Source: a virus. From it: 20,381 nucleotides of DNA. Made by a program: the position numbers and the translations under genes. Positions 10,281 through 16,112 of this stretch are shown one piece after another (within the stretch, counting starts at the first letter, position 1; every line of letters starts with the position of its first letter). The stretch is taken from IMG/VR virus record IMGVR_UViG_3300025601_001585, positions 1 to 20,381 of that record; one strand, 5' to 3'. Below the pieces are notes generated by a model. That model was not told the DNA's origin. It ran no database searches and was given only the letters and a program-made list of their open reading frames with translations.

Positions 10281-10844
10281 ATGGCATTAAAGGAACTAGT
10301 TCCCGGAGAGCTCTGGGAGTATGAGAACTTTATAACTGATTCAGAGCTTGGGCTCTTGCTCGATAAGGCTAGGTTCGCCAGAGAAGAAGATTGGTTTGCC
10401 GAAGACTTACCTGACTATGATAAGCATCATGCTGGAAAAACTTTTGAGTTCCAAGATACTCCTGGGGGAAGCTACCTGTCAAAGGCAATTGACCTTAGAG
10501 TTGCTGCCCTGTTCAAAGACGTAGCATACATGAATGAAATAGGTAGTATATGCAGAGCTACATCCCATCTAGAACCTGTAGGGATGCACAGAGATAATGC
10601 TGACCAAGACATAGTCGGGGAACATAGAAACACTCATGTGAAGTATGGAGTCCTTATGTACTTAAACGATGACTATATTGGGGGCGAGATATGCTATCCA
10701 GAGTTAGGAATAGAGTACAAACCTAAACCAGGTGTCCTGTTGATCCATCACGCTGGCAACTTACATGGTGTCAACCCAGTGACAGAAGGGGTCCGCTTCT
10801 CTATGACATCCTTTGTCTATGGCCTAGACGCCCTTATTGTTTAA
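10281..10844 (+). CDS. 2-oxoglutarate/Fe(II) oxygenase 1 (prolyl-4-hydroxylase-like)
   Basis: A 187-residue single-domain dioxygenase. The facial triad is H103-R-D105 (G-M-H-R-D-N) and H162 (L-H-G-V-N-P-V), with R172 (V-T-E-G-V-R) to bind 2-oxoglutarate. The middle strand Y-L-N-D-D-Y-I-G-G-E-I-C-Y-P-E-L is the family hallmark. All residues required for activity are present. It follows the DUF7455-like gene by four bases. Its last 21 bases, including the repeated word GACGCCCTTATT, overlap the 3' end of the convergent oxygenase 2. The substrate may be a peptidyl proline, another residue or a nucleotide. Confidence 0.88.
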   Translation: MALKELVPGELWEYENFITDSELGLLLDKARFAREEDWFAEDLPDYDKHHAGKTFEFQDTPGGSYLSKAIDLRVAALFKDVAYMNEIGSICRATSHLEPVGMHRDNADQDIVGEHRNTHVKYGVLMYLNDDYIGGEICYPELGIEYKPKPGVLLIHHAGNLHGVNPVTEGVRFSMTSFVYGLDALIV

Positions 10845-11387
10845 TGTCTCGTGGAAGACAATAATTACGTTGACGCGGACGCCCTTAGTCACATAGTCAA
10901 CCCCGTGGATAGTGTCATGGCCAGTAAAGAGAACTAGAGTTCCGGCCTTGGGATGTAAGCTAATTTTTAAGTCTGGGAAGTGTAGTTCCCCACCTTCGTA
11001 ATCGTCGGTGAGAAAAAGCGCGGCTATGTATGGTTTCTGATCTGCAGCGTCGCCGTTAGAGTCTGGCTCCCAGTCGGCATGACCTGCCAGCCAAGCCCCT
11101 TCGCGCATCATGTTCCCATAACATCTATGGAGAGTGAACTCTCCCTTGATCTCGTAATTGTCCCTAAAAACTGAGTGAGCATGCTTCACTGCAAGTTTTA
11201 TCTTGCCTTCGGCATCCCAATCGTAGGTTATAGCATTATCTTCTAAAACTTCGGGGCCGAACAGGCTGAAAGTGCTATACATCTCACGGTCGTCATCTTG
11301 CGGAGACAACTGCATAGCTGCCGCTGCTCGGCTGGCCTCCTCCTGTGTGAGAAAGTCTTCAAAGATGAGGTAGTCTTTCGAGATCAT
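10824..11387 (-). CDS. 2-oxoglutarate/Fe(II) oxygenase 2
   Basis: A 187-residue protein with H103-A-D105 (A-G-H-A-D-W), H161 (T-I-H-G-V-D) and R171 (V-T-K-G-V-R), plus L-F-L-T-D-D-Y-E-G-G-E-L-H-F-P-D-L. It is complete and probably active. It is translated from an ATGA overlap with oxygenase 3, so the two minus-strand genes form one operon. It differs strongly from oxygenase 1 outside the core motifs, so the copies are old paralogues or separate acquisitions rather than fresh duplicates. Its 3' end is interlocked with that of oxygenase 1. Confidence 0.87.
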   Translation of the reverse strand: MISKDYLIFEDFLTQEEASRAAAAMQLSPQDDDREMYSTFSLFGPEVLEDNAITYDWDAEGKIKLAVKHAHSVFRDNYEIKGEFTLHRCYGNMMREGAWLAGHADWEPDSNGDAADQKPYIAALFLTDDYEGGELHFPDLKISLHPKAGTLVLFTGHDTIHGVDYVTKGVRVNVIIVFHETLNNKGV

Positions 11388-11935
11388 GTTGCTAAAGGGA
11401 TGTGGTCGCGGAAAAAGAATATAAAGTTATAACGTTTCCCCGAAAGAACCTTACGAACTCCATGGAGATTGGCCTCGTTACCTCTAAACATTATCAAGTC
11501 GCCTTGCTCTAGCTTTATATCTATGTTGTGATGCTGGAAGTACAGTTCTCCACCTTCATAGTCGCTGTTTAGCATTAAAATACAAGAATAGTGCAGCTCC
11601 ACCTCGGGTTTACCGTCGTAGTGGTCCCCGTCGTCGTCGTGAGCGTAATTTTCCGCGCCAGTGTCCATAATGTTCCCGTAAAGGCGCTTCATGCCAAAAG
11701 TGTACTTCATGTCGTAATTGTCCTGAAAAAACGCTTTAACCTTAGTAAGCATCAATCTCACTGGTTGTAGGAAAGGTAGCTCCTCATTCTCCAAGTCTGT
11801 TAGGGGGACTCTTTGTAGTCGATATCCCGGTCTGAATTGGTCTTTCATCGCGTACTCTTCAATCCATTGTGAGTAAGTCTCGCACTGCGAGGGCGTGAGC
11901 GCGTTTTTAATGAGCTTGTATGGAAGGTCTGTCAT
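11384..11935 (-). CDS. 2-oxoglutarate/Fe(II) oxygenase 3
   Basis: A 183-residue protein with H99-D-D101 (Y-A-H-D-D-D-G), H158 (N-L-H-G-V-R) and R168 (L-S-G-K-R-Y-N-F). The hallmark strand is M-L-N-S-D-Y-E-G-G-E-L-Y-F. It is the first gene of the minus-strand pair. The start is leaderless: TAGAAT ends six bases before the ATG. It diverges from the carbamoyltransferase gene with only 36 bases between the two start codons, so the two promoters are interleaved and may be co-regulated. Confidence 0.87.
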   Translation of the reverse strand: MTDLPYKLIKNALTPSQCETYSQWIEEYAMKDQFRPGYRLQRVPLTDLENEELPFLQPVRLMLTKVKAFFQDNYDMKYTFGMKRLYGNIMDTGAENYAHDDDGDHYDGKPEVELHYSCILMLNSDYEGGELYFQHHNIDIKLEQGDLIMFRGNEANLHGVRKVLSGKRYNFIFFFRDHIPLAT

Positions 11936-11941
11936 AAGAAC

Positions 11942-11965
11942 ATTCTATCATTATTAGATTAGACT
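11942..11965. promoter_or_regulatory. Back-to-back divergent leaderless promoters
   Basis: Minus strand: TAGAAT (11947-11942), GTTCTT, ATG at 11935. Plus strand: TAGACT (11960-11965), ATTAGG, ATG at 11972. The two -10 boxes are 12 bases apart, so polymerases on the two strands would exclude each other. Neither has a clear -35. Confidence 0.6.
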
Positions 11966-11971
11966 ATTAGG

Positions 11972-13405
11972 ATGAAGATCATAGGTATCAATGAGACTAC
12001 ACACGATGCTGCAATGGCCGTCATTGAGGACGGTGAGATCCTATTCGCTGGACACGCCGAGCGCTACAGTAAGCAGAAGAACGATTGGTATAACAACGAC
12101 CTTATTCTGATGGACGCCCTTAAGCACGGATCACCAGACAAGGTCGCCTACTATGAGAAGTCTTGGCTAAAGAAAATTAGGATTGCACGGCACGGTGGGT
12201 TCGGGGGTGGACGTCCCTACTACAAAGACACTCTTCTCGGTGGCCTACCAACCATTAACTTCACCCATCACTATTCGCATGCTGCTGCTGGATACTTTAC
12301 CTCTAGTTTTGTGGACGCCGCTATTGTTGTGCTAGACGCAATTGGAGAGTTTGAGACGTCTACAGTTTGGAAGGGGGAAGGTGAGAAGATAACGCAGGTG
12401 AGAAGGGACAAGTACCCCTTCAGCTTTGGACTCTTCTACTCTGCCTTTACGCAGCTAGTTGGGTTGAAGCCAAACGAGGAAGAGTACATCATGATGGGCA
12501 TGGCTGCCTATGGTGACAAAGATAGATATTACGAGAGAGTACGCAGTTACTTCCCTATCTATTACGCCCAAGAGGGTAACTTTCATAGGGGTATCCAAGA
12601 CTGGGGAGAAGAAGTAGAGGGCCAAGCAAGATTTGACCTAGCAGCTGCAGTCCAACAGGTTTTTGAGGACCGACTGGTTGAGTACATAACCATGGTTAAA
12701 CAAACTACTGGCAAGAAAAATCTAGTCTTTATGGGCGGCTGTGCCCTAAACAGTAAGGCCAATACCCTTCTTCACGGCATCTTCAAGAATGTCTGGATCA
12801 TGCCTAACCCTGGAGATGCGGGGTCAGCACTTGGCGCTGCAGCCGCCCTCTATGGAAAACACCTGAACTGGACTGGACCATACTTGGGTACCAATATCCC
12901 TGGGGAGTATCCAGTAAAGAAAATCGTAGACGCCCTTATTAACGACAAAGTAGCGCCAGTAGCTTCAGGTAGGGCTGAGTATGGGCCAAGGGCGTTGGGC
13001 AATAGGAGTATTTTGGCCGACCCTAGGGATCCAGACATAAAGAATAAAGTAAATCTAATAAAGAAACGTGAGCTATTTAGACCATTCGCTCCAATTGTTA
13101 TGGAGGAGTATGCAACCAGGTGGTTCGATATGGACTACTACTCTCCTTATATGCAGTACACACCAAGATGCCTTAAGCCTTGGTTGATCCCTAGCGTGGT
13201 GCACGCAGACGGTACTTCTAGGGTTCAGACAGTAAATAAGCGTCAACACCCGGGGCTTTATGAAGTACTAGAGAATTGGCATGCCTACAGCGGTGTGCCA
13301 GTTCTATTGAATACAAGTCTCAATATAAAAGGACAGCCTATGCTTAATGATCAAAATGATGTACTAGAATGGGAAGCACACTACAACACTAAAATCATCA
13401 GCTAG
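11972..13405 (+). CDS. NodU/CmcH/TobZ-family carbamoyltransferase
   Basis: A 477-residue two-domain enzyme. The Kae1-like N-terminal domain begins I-I-G-I-N-E-T-T-H-D-A-A and carries the metal-binding H99-H-Y-S-H103 and a phosphate loop at G-G-C-A-L-N-S. The C-terminal domain contains G333-R-A-E-Y-G-P-R-A-L-G-N344, the carbamoyl-adenylate signature, and ends with a L-L-N-T-S-L-N region. The family makes carbamoyl-AMP from carbamoyl phosphate and ATP and transfers the carbamoyl group to a hydroxyl. Known acceptors include antibiotics, Nod factor and, in some phages, hydroxymethylated DNA bases. It sits among oxygenases that could create the hydroxyl. The start is leaderless. Confidence 0.9.
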   Translation: MKIIGINETTHDAAMAVIEDGEILFAGHAERYSKQKNDWYNNDLILMDALKHGSPDKVAYYEKSWLKKIRIARHGGFGGGRPYYKDTLLGGLPTINFTHHYSHAAAGYFTSSFVDAAIVVLDAIGEFETSTVWKGEGEKITQVRRDKYPFSFGLFYSAFTQLVGLKPNEEEYIMMGMAAYGDKDRYYERVRSYFPIYYAQEGNFHRGIQDWGEEVEGQARFDLAAAVQQVFEDRLVEYITMVKQTTGKKNLVFMGGCALNSKANTLLHGIFKNVWIMPNPGDAGSALGAAAALYGKHLNWTGPYLGTNIPGEYPVKKIVDALINDKVAPVASGRAEYGPRALGNRSILADPRDPDIKNKVNLIKKRELFRPFAPIVMEEYATRWFDMDYYSPYMQYTPRCLKPWLIPSVVHADGTSRVQTVNKRQHPGLYEVLENWHAYSGVPVLLNTSLNIKGQPMLNDQNDVLEWEAHYNTKIIS

Positions 13406-13415
13406 AGGACTAACA

Positions 13416-14114
13416 ATGACAGAACTTACATTTAGATCAGACATGACCGTGGAGCTAGTCCAGTCAATGGGCGACGATGCTTCGGTAGTAAAAGCTGCTC
13501 GTGTCTCTACTGGCGGTAGCACTACTACTCCTGAGAAGGATGCTGGTTTAATTAACTACCTTATGCGTGATCGCCACGGCACCCCTTTTGAGCACAACGC
13601 TTTTACGTTCTATGTAGAGGCACCTATCTTTGTGTTCCGCGAGTTTATGCGTCACAGGGTTGCGTCCTACAACGAAGAGTCAGGCCGATACAAAGAGCTT
13701 GCTCCAGTGTTTTACATTCCTAGCGAAGATCGTAAGCTAATTCAAGTTGGTAAGCCAGGTGCTTACACTTTTGAAGAGGGAACTTATGACCAGAAAAAGA
13801 TTGTTCCGGCAGACATCAAGATGGCAGCTAAAGAGTCATACGCTGCTTATCAGCGGATGCTAGAAAAAGGTGTTGCCCGAGAGGTCGCAAGGAGTGTTCT
13901 ACCAGTTGGACTCTACTCTTCTATGTTCGTTACGATGAACGCCCGTACACTGATGAACTTCCTATCACTTCGAACTATGCGTGAAGGAACAATGTTTCCT
14001 TCTTTTCCGCAGAGGGAGATAGAGATGTGTGCCGAAAAGATGGAAGACTTCTTTGCAGAGGTCATGCCAGTTACTTACGCAACGTTCAATAAGAATGGTC
14101 GAGTAGCTCCATAA
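13416..14114 (+). CDS. thyX: FAD-dependent thymidylate synthase ThyX
   Basis: A 232-residue flavin-dependent thymidylate synthase that makes dTMP from dUMP with methylenetetrahydrofolate and NADPH. The ThyX signature R79-H-R-V-A-S-Y-N-E-E-S-G-R-Y92 is complete, and R-T-L-M-N-F-L-S-L-R supplies the usual substrate-contact helix. Length is typical. AGAGGA lies about nine bases before the ATG and the gene starts 10 bases after the carbamoyltransferase, so it is cotranscribed with it. Together with nrdHIEF and dUTPase it completes a dTTP supply route. Confidence 0.95.
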   Translation: MTELTFRSDMTVELVQSMGDDASVVKAARVSTGGSTTTPEKDAGLINYLMRDRHGTPFEHNAFTFYVEAPIFVFREFMRHRVASYNEESGRYKELAPVFYIPSEDRKLIQVGKPGAYTFEEGTYDQKKIVPADIKMAAKESYAAYQRMLEKGVAREVARSVLPVGLYSSMFVTMNARTLMNFLSLRTMREGTMFPSFPQREIEMCAEKMEDFFAEVMPVTYATFNKNGRVAP

Positions 14115-14147
14115 GCAAGCACTATTATAGTCAACCTGCACAGCTAG

Positions 14148-14153
14148 TACACT
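14148..14153 (+). promoter_or_regulatory. -10 box TACACT of a leaderless promoter
   Basis: TACACT, then GATACCT (seven bases), then ATG at 14161. TTATAG at 14125-14130 is at the right distance for a weak -35. Confidence 0.55.
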
Positions 14154-14160
14154 GATACCT

Positions 14161-14778
14161 ATGGATATTAAATTTATTGGCGAGACTCAGATTGCTATAG
14201 TAGATGACTTAGTTGACGTTACCGTCTGTGACGCTCTCTCTGAAATGTCTAAGTGGTGCAAAGCTCAAGGCTTAGTGTTCAGAGGTGAGCTAGACACTGA
14301 TGACCACATAGTTGTAGAAGATGGTACGAACTCCCCTCCCCGCGAGGAGGATGACACCTTCTGGCTAGACAAGAATACTCCCATATCGGAGCTCCCGCAG
14401 TACTACCAAGACCTTGCTCGAATAGTGTCCGACCGCTCAACTGAAGCTGTGGATGCCTACTTCGCTCTTATCGGGCAGACACTTCCTTACAGGGAGATTA
14501 ACTTAGACGTTATACACATATTCTTTGCAGGCGAAGAGCTCGAATGGCACATGGACTGCTTTGACTACTCGCTAGTCTTCTACCTAAATGACCGGACAGA
14601 GTGGGAGGGTGGAGACCTCTACTATCCCGAATTGGACATAAAGCTGTCACCAGTTAAGAATAGACTGGTAATCCAGCCCTCGCGGATTCCTCACTTGGTC
14701 ACTAAGATCACTGGGGGCCTTAGGACTACAATGACAACTTTCATCCCCATCGGGGACCCACCGTACCCATCCGACTAA
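14161..14778 (+). CDS. 2-oxoglutarate/Fe(II) oxygenase 4
   Basis: A 205-residue protein with H130-M-D132 (E-W-H-M-D-C), H178 (I-P-H-L-V) and R188 (T-G-G-L-R). The hallmark strand is F-Y-L-N-D-R-T-E-W-E-G-G-D-L-Y-Y-P-E-L. All catalytic residues are present. The N-terminal region is longer than in oxygenases 1-3. It follows thyX but has its own leaderless start. A 30-codon ORF and the degenerate paralogue follow on the same strand. Confidence 0.85.
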   Translation: MDIKFIGETQIAIVDDLVDVTVCDALSEMSKWCKAQGLVFRGELDTDDHIVVEDGTNSPPREEDDTFWLDKNTPISELPQYYQDLARIVSDRSTEAVDAYFALIGQTLPYREINLDVIHIFFAGEELEWHMDCFDYSLVFYLNDRTEWEGGDLYYPELDIKLSPVKNRLVIQPSRIPHLVTKITGGLRTTMTTFIPIGDPPYPSD

Positions 14779-14791
14779 AGGCGTAATTATA

Positions 14792-14884
14792 ATGATGATT
14801 CTGTACTATATGGAACGTGCCTACCGCAAGATTAAGTACATCCTCTTTCCGAAGAAGAGGCCAAAGAAGGACTTTATCTACTAA
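14792..14884 (+). CDS. Short basic ORF (30 residues) coupled to the next gene
   Basis: ATGATG at 14792 opens a frame ending at TAA 14882-14884, which overlaps the ATG of the next gene (TAATG). The peptide starts M-M-I-L-Y-Y-M-E-R-A-Y-R-K and is rich in Lys, Arg and Tyr. A perfect TATAAT at 14788-14793 overlaps the first ATG, so transcripts from it would instead use the in-frame ATG at 14810 (24 residues). The coupling and the lack of any other content here support real translation. Function is unknown. Confidence 0.5.
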   Translation: MMILYYMERAYRKIKYILFPKKRPKKDFIY

Positions 14885-15507
14885 TGTATGCTGGCGTAAC
14901 TACGATAACTCGAGAGACTAGGCATCTACCTATACCCTTTGCGACACTTAACGATGTTCTGACGCTTGTCGAAGTCGACCTCTTGCGTGATTTTGCTCTA
15001 AACTTTTCGTCTGACGCTACTGGGGATGACTTCAGTGTGAAGCACGAACTACCTAACCGGCCTACCGAATGGGACCCTCACGGGTTGGTGATGAAGCTGC
15101 AGGATCAGTTTAGAGACTACATACAAAGAAACTTCTTCATACTGGGGTCTGTGGAGCCTAGATACTTTACAATCCTCAGGACCGACGAGCTGCAATCATA
15201 TGTGGACAAGTATAGCTACTTTGAAAATGGTGGATACGTCTTATATACTGCGATCATACCGCTCTCACACCAGGGTACTGACTATACAGGTGGAGATCTT
15301 ACTTATATGCAAACCGGCGAGGGCGGATCTGGGAAACCAGGGCAGATGCTAGTCCACCGAAACGAGACACTGAACTCTTGGGCGTTAAATAAGGTGGAGT
15401 CCGGAATCCGAATAGACTTAGTCCTTGTGCAACACGAAATAGAGAACAGAACAAGCTACACCGAGTTTGAGATGGAACAAACTATAGACGATGGAATGTC
15501 TTACTAA
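14884..15507 (+). CDS. Degenerate 2-oxoglutarate/Fe(II) oxygenase-fold protein (paralogue 5)
   Basis: A 207-residue protein that keeps the fold hallmarks (I-P-L-S-H-Q-G-T-D-Y-T-G-G-D-L-T-Y) and the 2-oxoglutarate arginine R176 (E-S-G-I-R). The H-x-D position reads Y106-V-D108 and the distal histidine position, ten residues before the Arg, reads W166. Both iron-binding histidines are therefore replaced, so it should not bind Fe(II) normally. It could be a binding or regulatory pseudoenzyme. The frame is intact at normal length, so it is not a decaying pseudogene. It is coupled to the 30-codon ORF and overlaps the convergent oxygenase 6 by four bases. Confidence 0.75.
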   Translation: MYAGVTTITRETRHLPIPFATLNDVLTLVEVDLLRDFALNFSSDATGDDFSVKHELPNRPTEWDPHGLVMKLQDQFRDYIQRNFFILGSVEPRYFTILRTDELQSYVDKYSYFENGGYVLYTAIIPLSHQGTDYTGGDLTYMQTGEGGSGKPGQMLVHRNETLNSWALNKVESGIRIDLVLVQHEIENRTSYTEFEMEQTIDDGMSY

Positions 15508-16112
15508 ATATAGCTCGGAGCATTAGCTGCGTCGTACTGAAAACCTGTCATGCTGTATCTAACTCCGTCAGTAACTGGCGGTACTCCGTGAAGAATATCA
15601 CTGGAATGCACAACTATCATGCCGGACTCTGCTTCTAGCTCTAGGTCGAGATCCGGATAGTAGAGACTGCCTCCTGAGTAACTACTGCCACTATTTAAAT
15701 AGCAGATTACCCCATATTTTATCCCTGTATCTCCTTCTTCTCCCTCGAAGGAGTCGGTATGATCTGCTAGATAATCACCGTTGGTCCACCGGTGAACTAT
15801 GTTCAGTGGCATTCCGATATACGCTCCGGCGAGCCCCCCTAGGGCAGATATGCACGCAAGTATGGCAGTGTCTGCAAACTCATTGAGTTCGTTGTAGTGC
15901 CGCACGTTCGCGTCCCCTTTAAGTGTATTGAGGTAGACATTTCGTGCATCCCATCTAGTTACGGGGGTGCCGTCACTCGTTAGAGTCCCTATCTTGGTCA
16001 GCCCACTGTCGATTAAGAGCTCCGTATAGCCGGTAAGGGCTTTGCATAGCCCATCAGGTATTGCATTCCGGGCTATAGCAATATCAGCACCAGGCACTTT
16101 GATTATCTCCAT
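15504..16112 (-). CDS. 2-oxoglutarate/Fe(II) oxygenase 6
   Basis: A 202-residue protein with H118-T-D120 (L-A-D-H-T-D-S-F), H175 (I-L-H-G-V-P-P-V) and R185 (T-D-G-V-R-Y-S-M-T). The hallmark is Y-L-N-S-G-S-S-Y-S-G-G-S-L-Y-Y-P-D-L. It appears active and its C-terminal motifs most resemble oxygenase 1 (H-G-V-x-P-V-T-x-G-V-R-x-S-M-T). The start is leaderless with TAGGCT six bases before the ATG. It is divergent from the serine recombinase gene. Confidence 0.87.
   Translation of the reverse strand: MEIIKVPGADIAIARNAIPDGLCKALTGYTELLIDSGLTKIGTLTSDGTPVTRWDARNVYLNTLKGDANVRHYNELNEFADTAILACISALGGLAGAYIGMPLNIVHRWTNGDYLADHTDSFEGEEGDTGIKYGVICYLNSGSSYSGGSLYYPDLDLELEAESGMIVVHSSDILHGVPPVTDGVRYSMTGFQYDAANAPSYI

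Follow-up and report, generated by a model that had tools for sequence, protein, structure and literature searches.

Why would a phage carry six genes of one oxygenase fold around a single carbamoyltransferase gene? The question is raised by a 20,381-bp fragment of the IMG/VR virus record IMGVR_UViG_3300025601_001585 (positions 1–20,381; hereafter, the window), in which six open reading frames (ORFs) of the 2-oxoglutarate (2OG)/Fe(II) oxygenase fold, here called O1 to O6, lie at positions 10281–16112 together with the gene of a carbamoyltransferase (CT). Expanded sets of 2OG oxygenases have long been recorded in aquatic phages without an established substrate. We found that the set in the window is ordinary in number but not in structure: it is built around a core of three genes, O3, CT, and O5, which recurs in related phages and in which O5, judged by its residues, is a conserved pseudo-oxygenase.

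A Conserved Core of Three Genes

The core is formed by O3 (11384–11935, minus strand; 183 residues), CT (11972–13405, plus strand; 477 residues), and O5 (14884–15507, plus strand; 207 residues). The order O3(−)|CT(+)|O5(+) is found again in about eight other phages, near-identical contigs being counted once. Ten loci were recovered with an O5 profile, all of them with CT directly upstream of O5, and fourteen with an O3 profile. In all of the latter, O3 adjoins CT either directly or with one SGNH-like gene in between, as in several relatives, except in three near-identical stretches (L160, L164, and L166) whose contigs carry CT elsewhere. The full order in relatives is a subtilase gene, variable oxygenases, O3(−), often an SGNH-like gene, CT(+), O5(+), and, usually directly after O5, a gene on the minus strand that is a distant relative of O4 (29–34% identity), followed by a resolvase-type recombinase and/or dUTPase gene. 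The earlier note had proposed a search for the same cluster in related phages, and the homologues found there share the CT context rather than being scattered singly. Close relatives differ strongly in which of O1, O2, O4, and O6 they carry. As a query, O6 (P0006) recovered solely near-identical contigs of the window phage itself, and O3 as a query against phage isolates found nothing beyond short matches in cyanophages.

CT is a carbamoyltransferase of the NodU/TobZ type with both expected domains, PF02543 (138 bits against a cut-off of 24; E = 6.3e-40) and PF16861 (174 bits against a cut-off of 27; E = 1.9e-51), and it matches TobZ, GdmN, and the novobiocin carbamoyltransferase in the PDB. 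O3 retains its catalytic triad and matches PF13640 (E = 1.4e-9). Its AlphaFold2 model (pLDDT 96) found in Foldseek a viral collagen prolyl hydroxylase as the best PDB match (E = 1.8e-11) and HygX, a sugar-acting enzyme, as the next.

In the window, the core also encloses a gene for the flavin-dependent thymidylate synthase ThyX (13416–14114, plus strand; PF02511, E = 9.8e-52). It lies inside the block only here and outside it in the relatives L018, L021, and L024, so its place within the core is peculiar to the window. On the same ground, CT and ThyX were ruled out as a base-modification pair.

An Oxygenase Fold without Metal Ligands

O5 taken alone had no match in Pfam or PHROGs. Its relationship to the oxygenases follows from BLASTP within the six-sequence comparison (E = 8e-6 with O1) and is also seen in its AlphaFold2 model (pLDDT 80, pTM 0.78), which matched 2OG oxygenase structures with E values from 2e-10 to 1e-6; the best PDB match was again the viral collagen prolyl hydroxylase (E = 2e-10), PHD2 ranked lower, and viral 2OG oxygenase models were matched as well. 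The HxD motif and the distal His are lost in O5 (Y-x-D...W) and the Arg is kept, and all of the recovered orthologues are equally degenerate. It should be noted that one of the two peptide patterns in the O5 search spans the degenerate distal site, which biases that search toward degenerate copies; the O5 relatives from loci picked solely for CT, a scan independent of the O5 search, are likewise degenerate. Among the ORFs of CT-region oxygenases, 145 of 154 keep H, D, and H with Arg or Lys, and the degenerate class is essentially O5.

Because every recovered orthologue follows CT directly and is without the metal ligands, O5 is, by its sequence, a conserved pseudo-oxygenase. A recently broken gene was ruled out, the orthologues being degenerate at the same positions at 25–39% identity.

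The Six Oxygenase Genes and Their Relationships

All six ORFs were confirmed with the coordinates and strands that the earlier note had given them. In addition to O3 and O5, they are O1 (10281–10844, plus strand; 187 residues, H103-x-D105...H...R), O2 (10824–11387, minus strand; 187 residues), O4 (14161–14778, plus strand; 205 residues), and O6 (15504–16112, minus strand; 202 residues). PF13640 scored above its curated cut-off in O2 (E = 3.1e-7), O3, O4 (E = 2.6e-7), and O6 (E = 5e-10); O1 was recognised instead by PHROG 61 (E = 3.9e-13) and matched PiuC (E = 2.4e-5) and a prolyl 4-hydroxylase (P4H) structure (E = 8.7e-3) in the PDB. With the structure matches of O3 and O5, which exclude unrelated folds for these two, the double-stranded beta-helix of 2OG/Fe(II) oxygenases is found in every one of the genes. 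The iron ligands HxD...H and a basic 2OG anchor are present in O1, O2, O3, O4, and O6 (H, D, H, R) and O5 reads Y, D, W, R, exactly the five intact triads counted earlier; the six enzymes assumed at that time become six oxygenase-fold genes, namely five presumed enzymes, judged by these residues, and one pseudo-oxygenase. In collagen prolyl 4-hydroxylases, Lys anchors the C5-carboxylate of 2OG; the anchor is Arg in all six window genes.

Little space is left between the genes: 4 bp are shared by O2 and O3, arranged head-to-tail, and by the convergent pair O5 and O6, and the divergent genes O3 and CT are 36 bp apart. They are also as diverged as claimed, the best pairs being O2–O3 (37% over 124 residues), O4–O6 (26% over 208 residues), and O1–O6 (43–49% over 70 residues). 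A profile of 27 CT-region oxygenases matched PiuC (E = 1e-14), prolyl 3-hydroxylase 1 (4e-13), and the Bacillus anthracis P4H (3e-10), with TET-like enzymes far lower (2e-6). Scores against Tet_JBP (PF12851) were 18, 21.1, and 14.6 bits for O1, O2, and O3, below the cut-off of 34.9.

A FastTree tree of 121 oxygenase domains contains many long branches and weak deep forks, and local groupings alone were used. One clade (support 96) unites O2, O3, and O5 with genes that all come from the CT region; a second group (support 92) holds O1, O4, and O6, and nearly all of its other members are CT-region genes as well. The nearest kin of O1 are CT-region genes of related phages. All six are thus nearest to the CT-region oxygenases of other phages and stand apart from those found near collagen-like genes. 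These two supported clades suggest that O1–O6 arose by old duplications within this phage gene pool and are not unrelated arrivals.

The number six had been called exceptional, and this was not borne out. We surveyed 48 contigs drawn from the first 80 loci with a gene related to the window CT, some of these contigs being near-duplicates and most of them fragments: phrog_61 oxygenases were present in 43 of the 48 and numbered six or more in 20, with a range from 0 to 17. The cyanophage S-SCSM1 has been reported to carry 24 2OG oxygenases (PMC9602691), and 16 marine cyanophages carry 0 to 5 each (PMC3037559). A density of six to seven oxygenases per 5,832 bp also occurs in related phages, but in arrays on the collagen side; in the CT region, the next densest after the window are five (L021) and four (L010) per 5,832 bp.

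Oxygenase Arrays beside Collagen-Like Genes

The context with CT described in the earlier note stands, but a second, larger array of oxygenases, beside collagen-like fibre genes, had been missed. In related phages, each such array holds about 7–10 oxygenases detected by hidden Markov models (HMMs) and a few unrecognised genes of similar size. Tail-fibre-like genes border the array on one side; on the other, a small gene akin to window positions 889–1251 separates it from giant collagen-like genes. The arrangement was seen in G007, G015, G017, G018, G023, G024, G025, G041, and G049, where G023 and G024 are seemingly the same phage. Array loci were noted among the related contigs at L088–L089, L090, L092, L093, L095, L097, L098, L100, and L167. 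Two conserved non-2OG families were also seen inside the arrays, for example at L167:8997-10482, namely DUF6065 (PF19541) and an unrecognised family starting with NRPWL.

H, D, and H are kept in 75 of 75 HMM-detected array oxygenases. The 2OG anchor is Lys in 44 and Arg in 31 of these, versus 11 Lys and 134 Arg in the CT region; after dereplication, the Lys/Arg counts are 14/14 (n = 28) and 10/70 (n = 80), respectively (Fisher p = 1e-4). At the far end of the array, G041 and G049 carry a glycosyltransferase of the N-acetylglucosamine (GlcNAc) type, PF11397 (L089:5072-6079 and L167:12576-13580), a family that includes the Dictyostelium Skp1 hydroxyproline GlcNAc transferase; its position suggests hydroxylation followed by glycosylation. 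The same glycosyltransferase was ruled out as a part of the CT block, since it is absent from G002, a near-identical 55,465-bp contig that extends the window rightward (contig coordinate = window − 236). In the collagen triplets, Pro occupies X in 35% and Thr occupies Y in 58%, with Pro almost never in Y; the B. anthracis P4H hydroxylates both X and Y prolines (PMC8968730).

Contigs of the window phage and its two nearest short relatives (L105 and L106) stop in the collagen gene. The closest relative with sequence across that region, G049 (nrdE 98%), reads through, and by analogy the window phage may well have a collagen-side array beyond the left edge of the window. Outside this group, most phages with collagen genes have no oxygenases, so the link between array and collagen is lineage-specific. 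Our literature search found no paper describing oxygenase arrays beside phage collagen-like genes.

Gene Context of the Window

The window also carries nrdH/I/E/F, WhiB-like, ThyX, dUTPase, PhoH, and collagen-like genes, the names of genes without a Pfam call being read from sequence. Since WhiB genes are regarded as marking actinophages (PMC10202952), the host is probably an aquatic actinobacterium. Upstream of the oxygenase block lie a GT61-family glycosyltransferase (6755–7738, plus strand; PF04577, E = 1.5e-12), a cytidylyltransferase-like protein of the kind that makes nucleotide-activated precursors (7738–8163, plus strand; PF01467, E = 2.3e-17; PHROG 7878, E = 1.5e-29), and a subtilase-like protein with a signal-peptide-like start (8202–9599, plus strand; PF00082, E = 1.7e-35), whose gene recurs immediately upstream of the block in related phages.

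The first collagen-like gene (2–889, minus strand; GPT/GAD repeat) is truncated at the window edge and syntenic with the collagen-like genes of relatives. Its repeats, ten residues followed by (F/L)VT, run off the edge.

Further to the right, G002 contains, by eye, more oxygenase or cupin-like genes at 22147–25118 and 44584–45767 (L086 and L087), three to four small ones, one fused to a Gfo/Idh-type oxidoreductase; the oxygenase at 44584–45303 was confirmed by HMM. Several SGNH-like genes with a G-C-S-x-x-x-G motif and a late H-x-x-x-H, the type found between O3 and CT in related phages, were seen at G002:19021-20001, 28990-29913, and 31948-34093. Two SGNH-like relatives tested against Pfam were not recognised.

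Interpretation of the Oxygenase–Carbamoyltransferase Region

We tentatively favour, with somewhat less than even confidence, the explanation that the region is a tailoring island that hydroxylates and carbamoylates a sugar- or nucleoside-type metabolite or a surface glycan. The acceptor, of a sugar or nucleoside type, may be a small metabolite, a surface glycan, or the precursor of a glycan, and CT would carbamoylate one of its hydroxyls or amines. Hydroxyls on the same kind of acceptor would be put in or adjusted by the 2OG oxygenases, O3 foremost, and O5 may be a non-catalytic partner of CT or O3, such as a scaffold or a substrate-presenting subunit. O1, O2, O4, and O6, drawn from the same two CT-region clades, would be outer components that can be exchanged and that differ between phages. 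What we infer from sequence and predicted structure are the activities, the acceptor, the succession of steps, and the part played by O5.

This explanation draws on the recurrent O3–CT–O5 core, the degenerate O5 orthologues, the grouping of O1–O6 with CT-region oxygenases, and the Streptomyces relative of CT described below. It draws further on the SGNH-like genes between O3 and CT in several relatives; the families within 3 kb of CT in relatives, among which are GlcNAc-type and GT8 glycosyltransferases, JmjC-type oxygenases, methyltransferases, and epimerases (132 proteins surveyed; 25 of 41 families listed); the GT61 and cytidylyltransferase genes 4–5 kb upstream of CT in the window; the fold of O3, which matches HygX as well as prolyl hydroxylases; and the CT of S-SCSM1, which sits with 2OG and sugar-nucleotide genes. 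The multi-step modification system suggested earlier is therefore plausible, given the shared fold and the shared context with a carbamoyltransferase. Several points weigh against the tailoring explanation. The sequence and fold neighbours are mixed, with peptide hydroxylases and the PiuC family scoring best; only O3, CT, and O5 are constant, and O1, O2, O4, and O6 may be outside the pathway; genes on both strands do not form a single operon; and the nearby nrd, ThyX, and dUTPase genes leave room for nucleotide chemistry.

In a rather unlikely alternative, the oxygenases act on proteins and hydroxylate virion fibres, collagen-like ones among them; the hydroxylated residues are glycosylated and the glycan is then carbamoylated. 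The profile matches to prolyl 3-hydroxylase 1, PiuC, and the B. anthracis P4H agree with this, as do the fold match to the viral collagen prolyl hydroxylase, the arrays abutting collagen-like genes in related phages, two of them with PF11397 at the far end, and the window's own collagen-like gene. However, O1–O6 stand apart from the array enzymes in the tree, all of them have Arg where 14 of 28 dereplicated array enzymes (and 10 of 80 CT-region ones) have Lys, the block is 9 kb from the collagen gene, and S-SCSM1 combines many 2OG genes and a CT with no PF01391 match. On account of the clades and the anchor residue, the six were set aside as collagen hydroxylases.

It is also unlikely that nothing beyond CT, O3, and O5 forms a joint pathway and that the region is a hypervariable island accumulating separately acquired oxygenases. 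The shifting membership of O1, O2, O4, and O6 among close relatives, the insertion of ThyX only here, and copy numbers from 0 to 17 among related contigs would fit such an island; the grouping of O1–O6 in two clades almost wholly of CT-region genes and the way in which O3 and O5 track CT do not.

DNA hypermodification, in which the oxygenases hydroxylate a pyrimidine that CT carbamoylates, as in 5-carbamoyloxymethylcytosine, appears improbable and is disfavoured. CT has the same Pfam families as the 5-hydroxymethylcytosine (5hmC) carbamoyltransferase (PMC8670742), nrd, ThyX, and dUTPase genes are in the neighbourhood, a cluster of the nucleoside-antibiotic type holds the nearest cellular CT, and O1 and O2 match Tet_JBP weakly. 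Against this, neither Tet_JBP match reaches the cut-off; PiuC, prolyl 3-hydroxylase 1, and P4H all rank above TET-like structures; ThyX is outside the block in relatives; and the companions of the 5hmC enzyme, a PF00303 thymidylate synthase homologue and dCMP deaminase, are not among the 25 listed of the 41 CT-neighbour families. Very improbable, finally, is a role in consuming 2OG and thereby shifting host carbon/nitrogen signalling, as proposed for multi-copy cyanophage 2OG oxygenases (PMC3037559), which leaves the sequence diversity, the dead O5, and the fixed CT partnership unexplained in a phage whose host, given the WhiB gene, is probably no cyanobacterium.

A bolder form of the tailoring explanation, distinctly unlikely in our estimation, joins a NodU-type CT, an active O3, and a dead O5 that presents the acceptor into a three-component machine making a hydroxylated and carbamoylated sugar or nucleoside so far unreported in phages, with the separate array hydroxylating collagen-like fibres; if true, both would be new to phage biology. 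In any case, the question is narrowed to the three-gene core, for which the pseudo-oxygenase offers a pull-down handle, and this core is separated from a second oxygenase population whose obvious candidate substrate is encoded by the adjacent collagen-like fibre genes.

Comparison with Known Systems

The only cellular relative of CT recovered from GTDB genomes is in Streptomyces samsunensis (contig L143, 46% identity), at a locus with EPSP-type, radical SAM, aminotransferase, tyrosine-phosphatase-type, short-chain dehydrogenase/reductase, SGNH/DUF6071, and 2OG genes. At the level of families, this content matches the malayamycin cluster with its genes MalO, MalJ, MalK, MalL, MalM/MalI, and MalD (PMC8724604), a likeness that does not by itself prove the product of the locus. 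In the malayamycin pathway, carbamoylation by MalD follows the action of 2OG oxygenases (PMC8724604). By analogy, the match supports a CT lineage that tailors sugar or nucleoside molecules alongside 2OG oxygenases, and it links a phage carbamoyltransferase to a Streptomyces cluster of the nucleoside-antibiotic type, although the comparison is with one locus at 46% identity. The locus has in common with the phage system a related CT, a 2OG oxygenase, and an SGNH-like gene, but the phage block is without the enolpyruvyl transferase, radical SAM, and phosphatase, and the Streptomyces 2OG protein is weakly similar to the phage ones.

S-SCSM1 and other T4-like cyanophages resemble the window in combining many diverged 2OG oxygenases with a Nol-like carbamoyltransferase, which in S-SCSM1 has four 2OG genes as well as GDP-mannose/fucose genes beside it; this CT, however, is related only distantly (about 30%) to the window CT. 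An O5-like pseudo-oxygenase was not recovered from any cyanophage, no O5 search aimed at cyanophages having been made, and S-SCSM1 gave no match to collagen (PF01391). The 5hmC carbamoyltransferase of a sewage phage found by MetaGPA has the same Pfam pair, PF02543/PF16861, but different companions: its markers are a PF00303 homologue and dCMP deaminase (PMC8670742), whereas no PF00303 homologue is among the listed CT neighbours and the window has ThyX (PF02511). Specificity residues for the 5hmC enzyme are placed at TobZ positions 408, 421, and 423.

The PiuC family, the prolyl 3- and 4-hydroxylases, and the viral collagen prolyl hydroxylase of PBCV-1 share the fold and the HxD...H...R/K layout of the five window genes at about 15–22% identity, with Arg in the window genes versus Lys in collagen P4H. 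For O5, the fifth-ranked structure match is the N-terminal domain of vaccinia C16, a PHD2-like fold that binds PHD2; in C16, a viral protein thus already uses an oxygenase fold to bind a partner, though the virus is unrelated and the identity with O5 is 16%. Taken together, large 2OG oxygenase sets were already known in phages, and what is new here is the O3–CT–O5 core with its conserved O5, the two CT-region clades, the collagen-side arrays, and the Streptomyces relative of CT.

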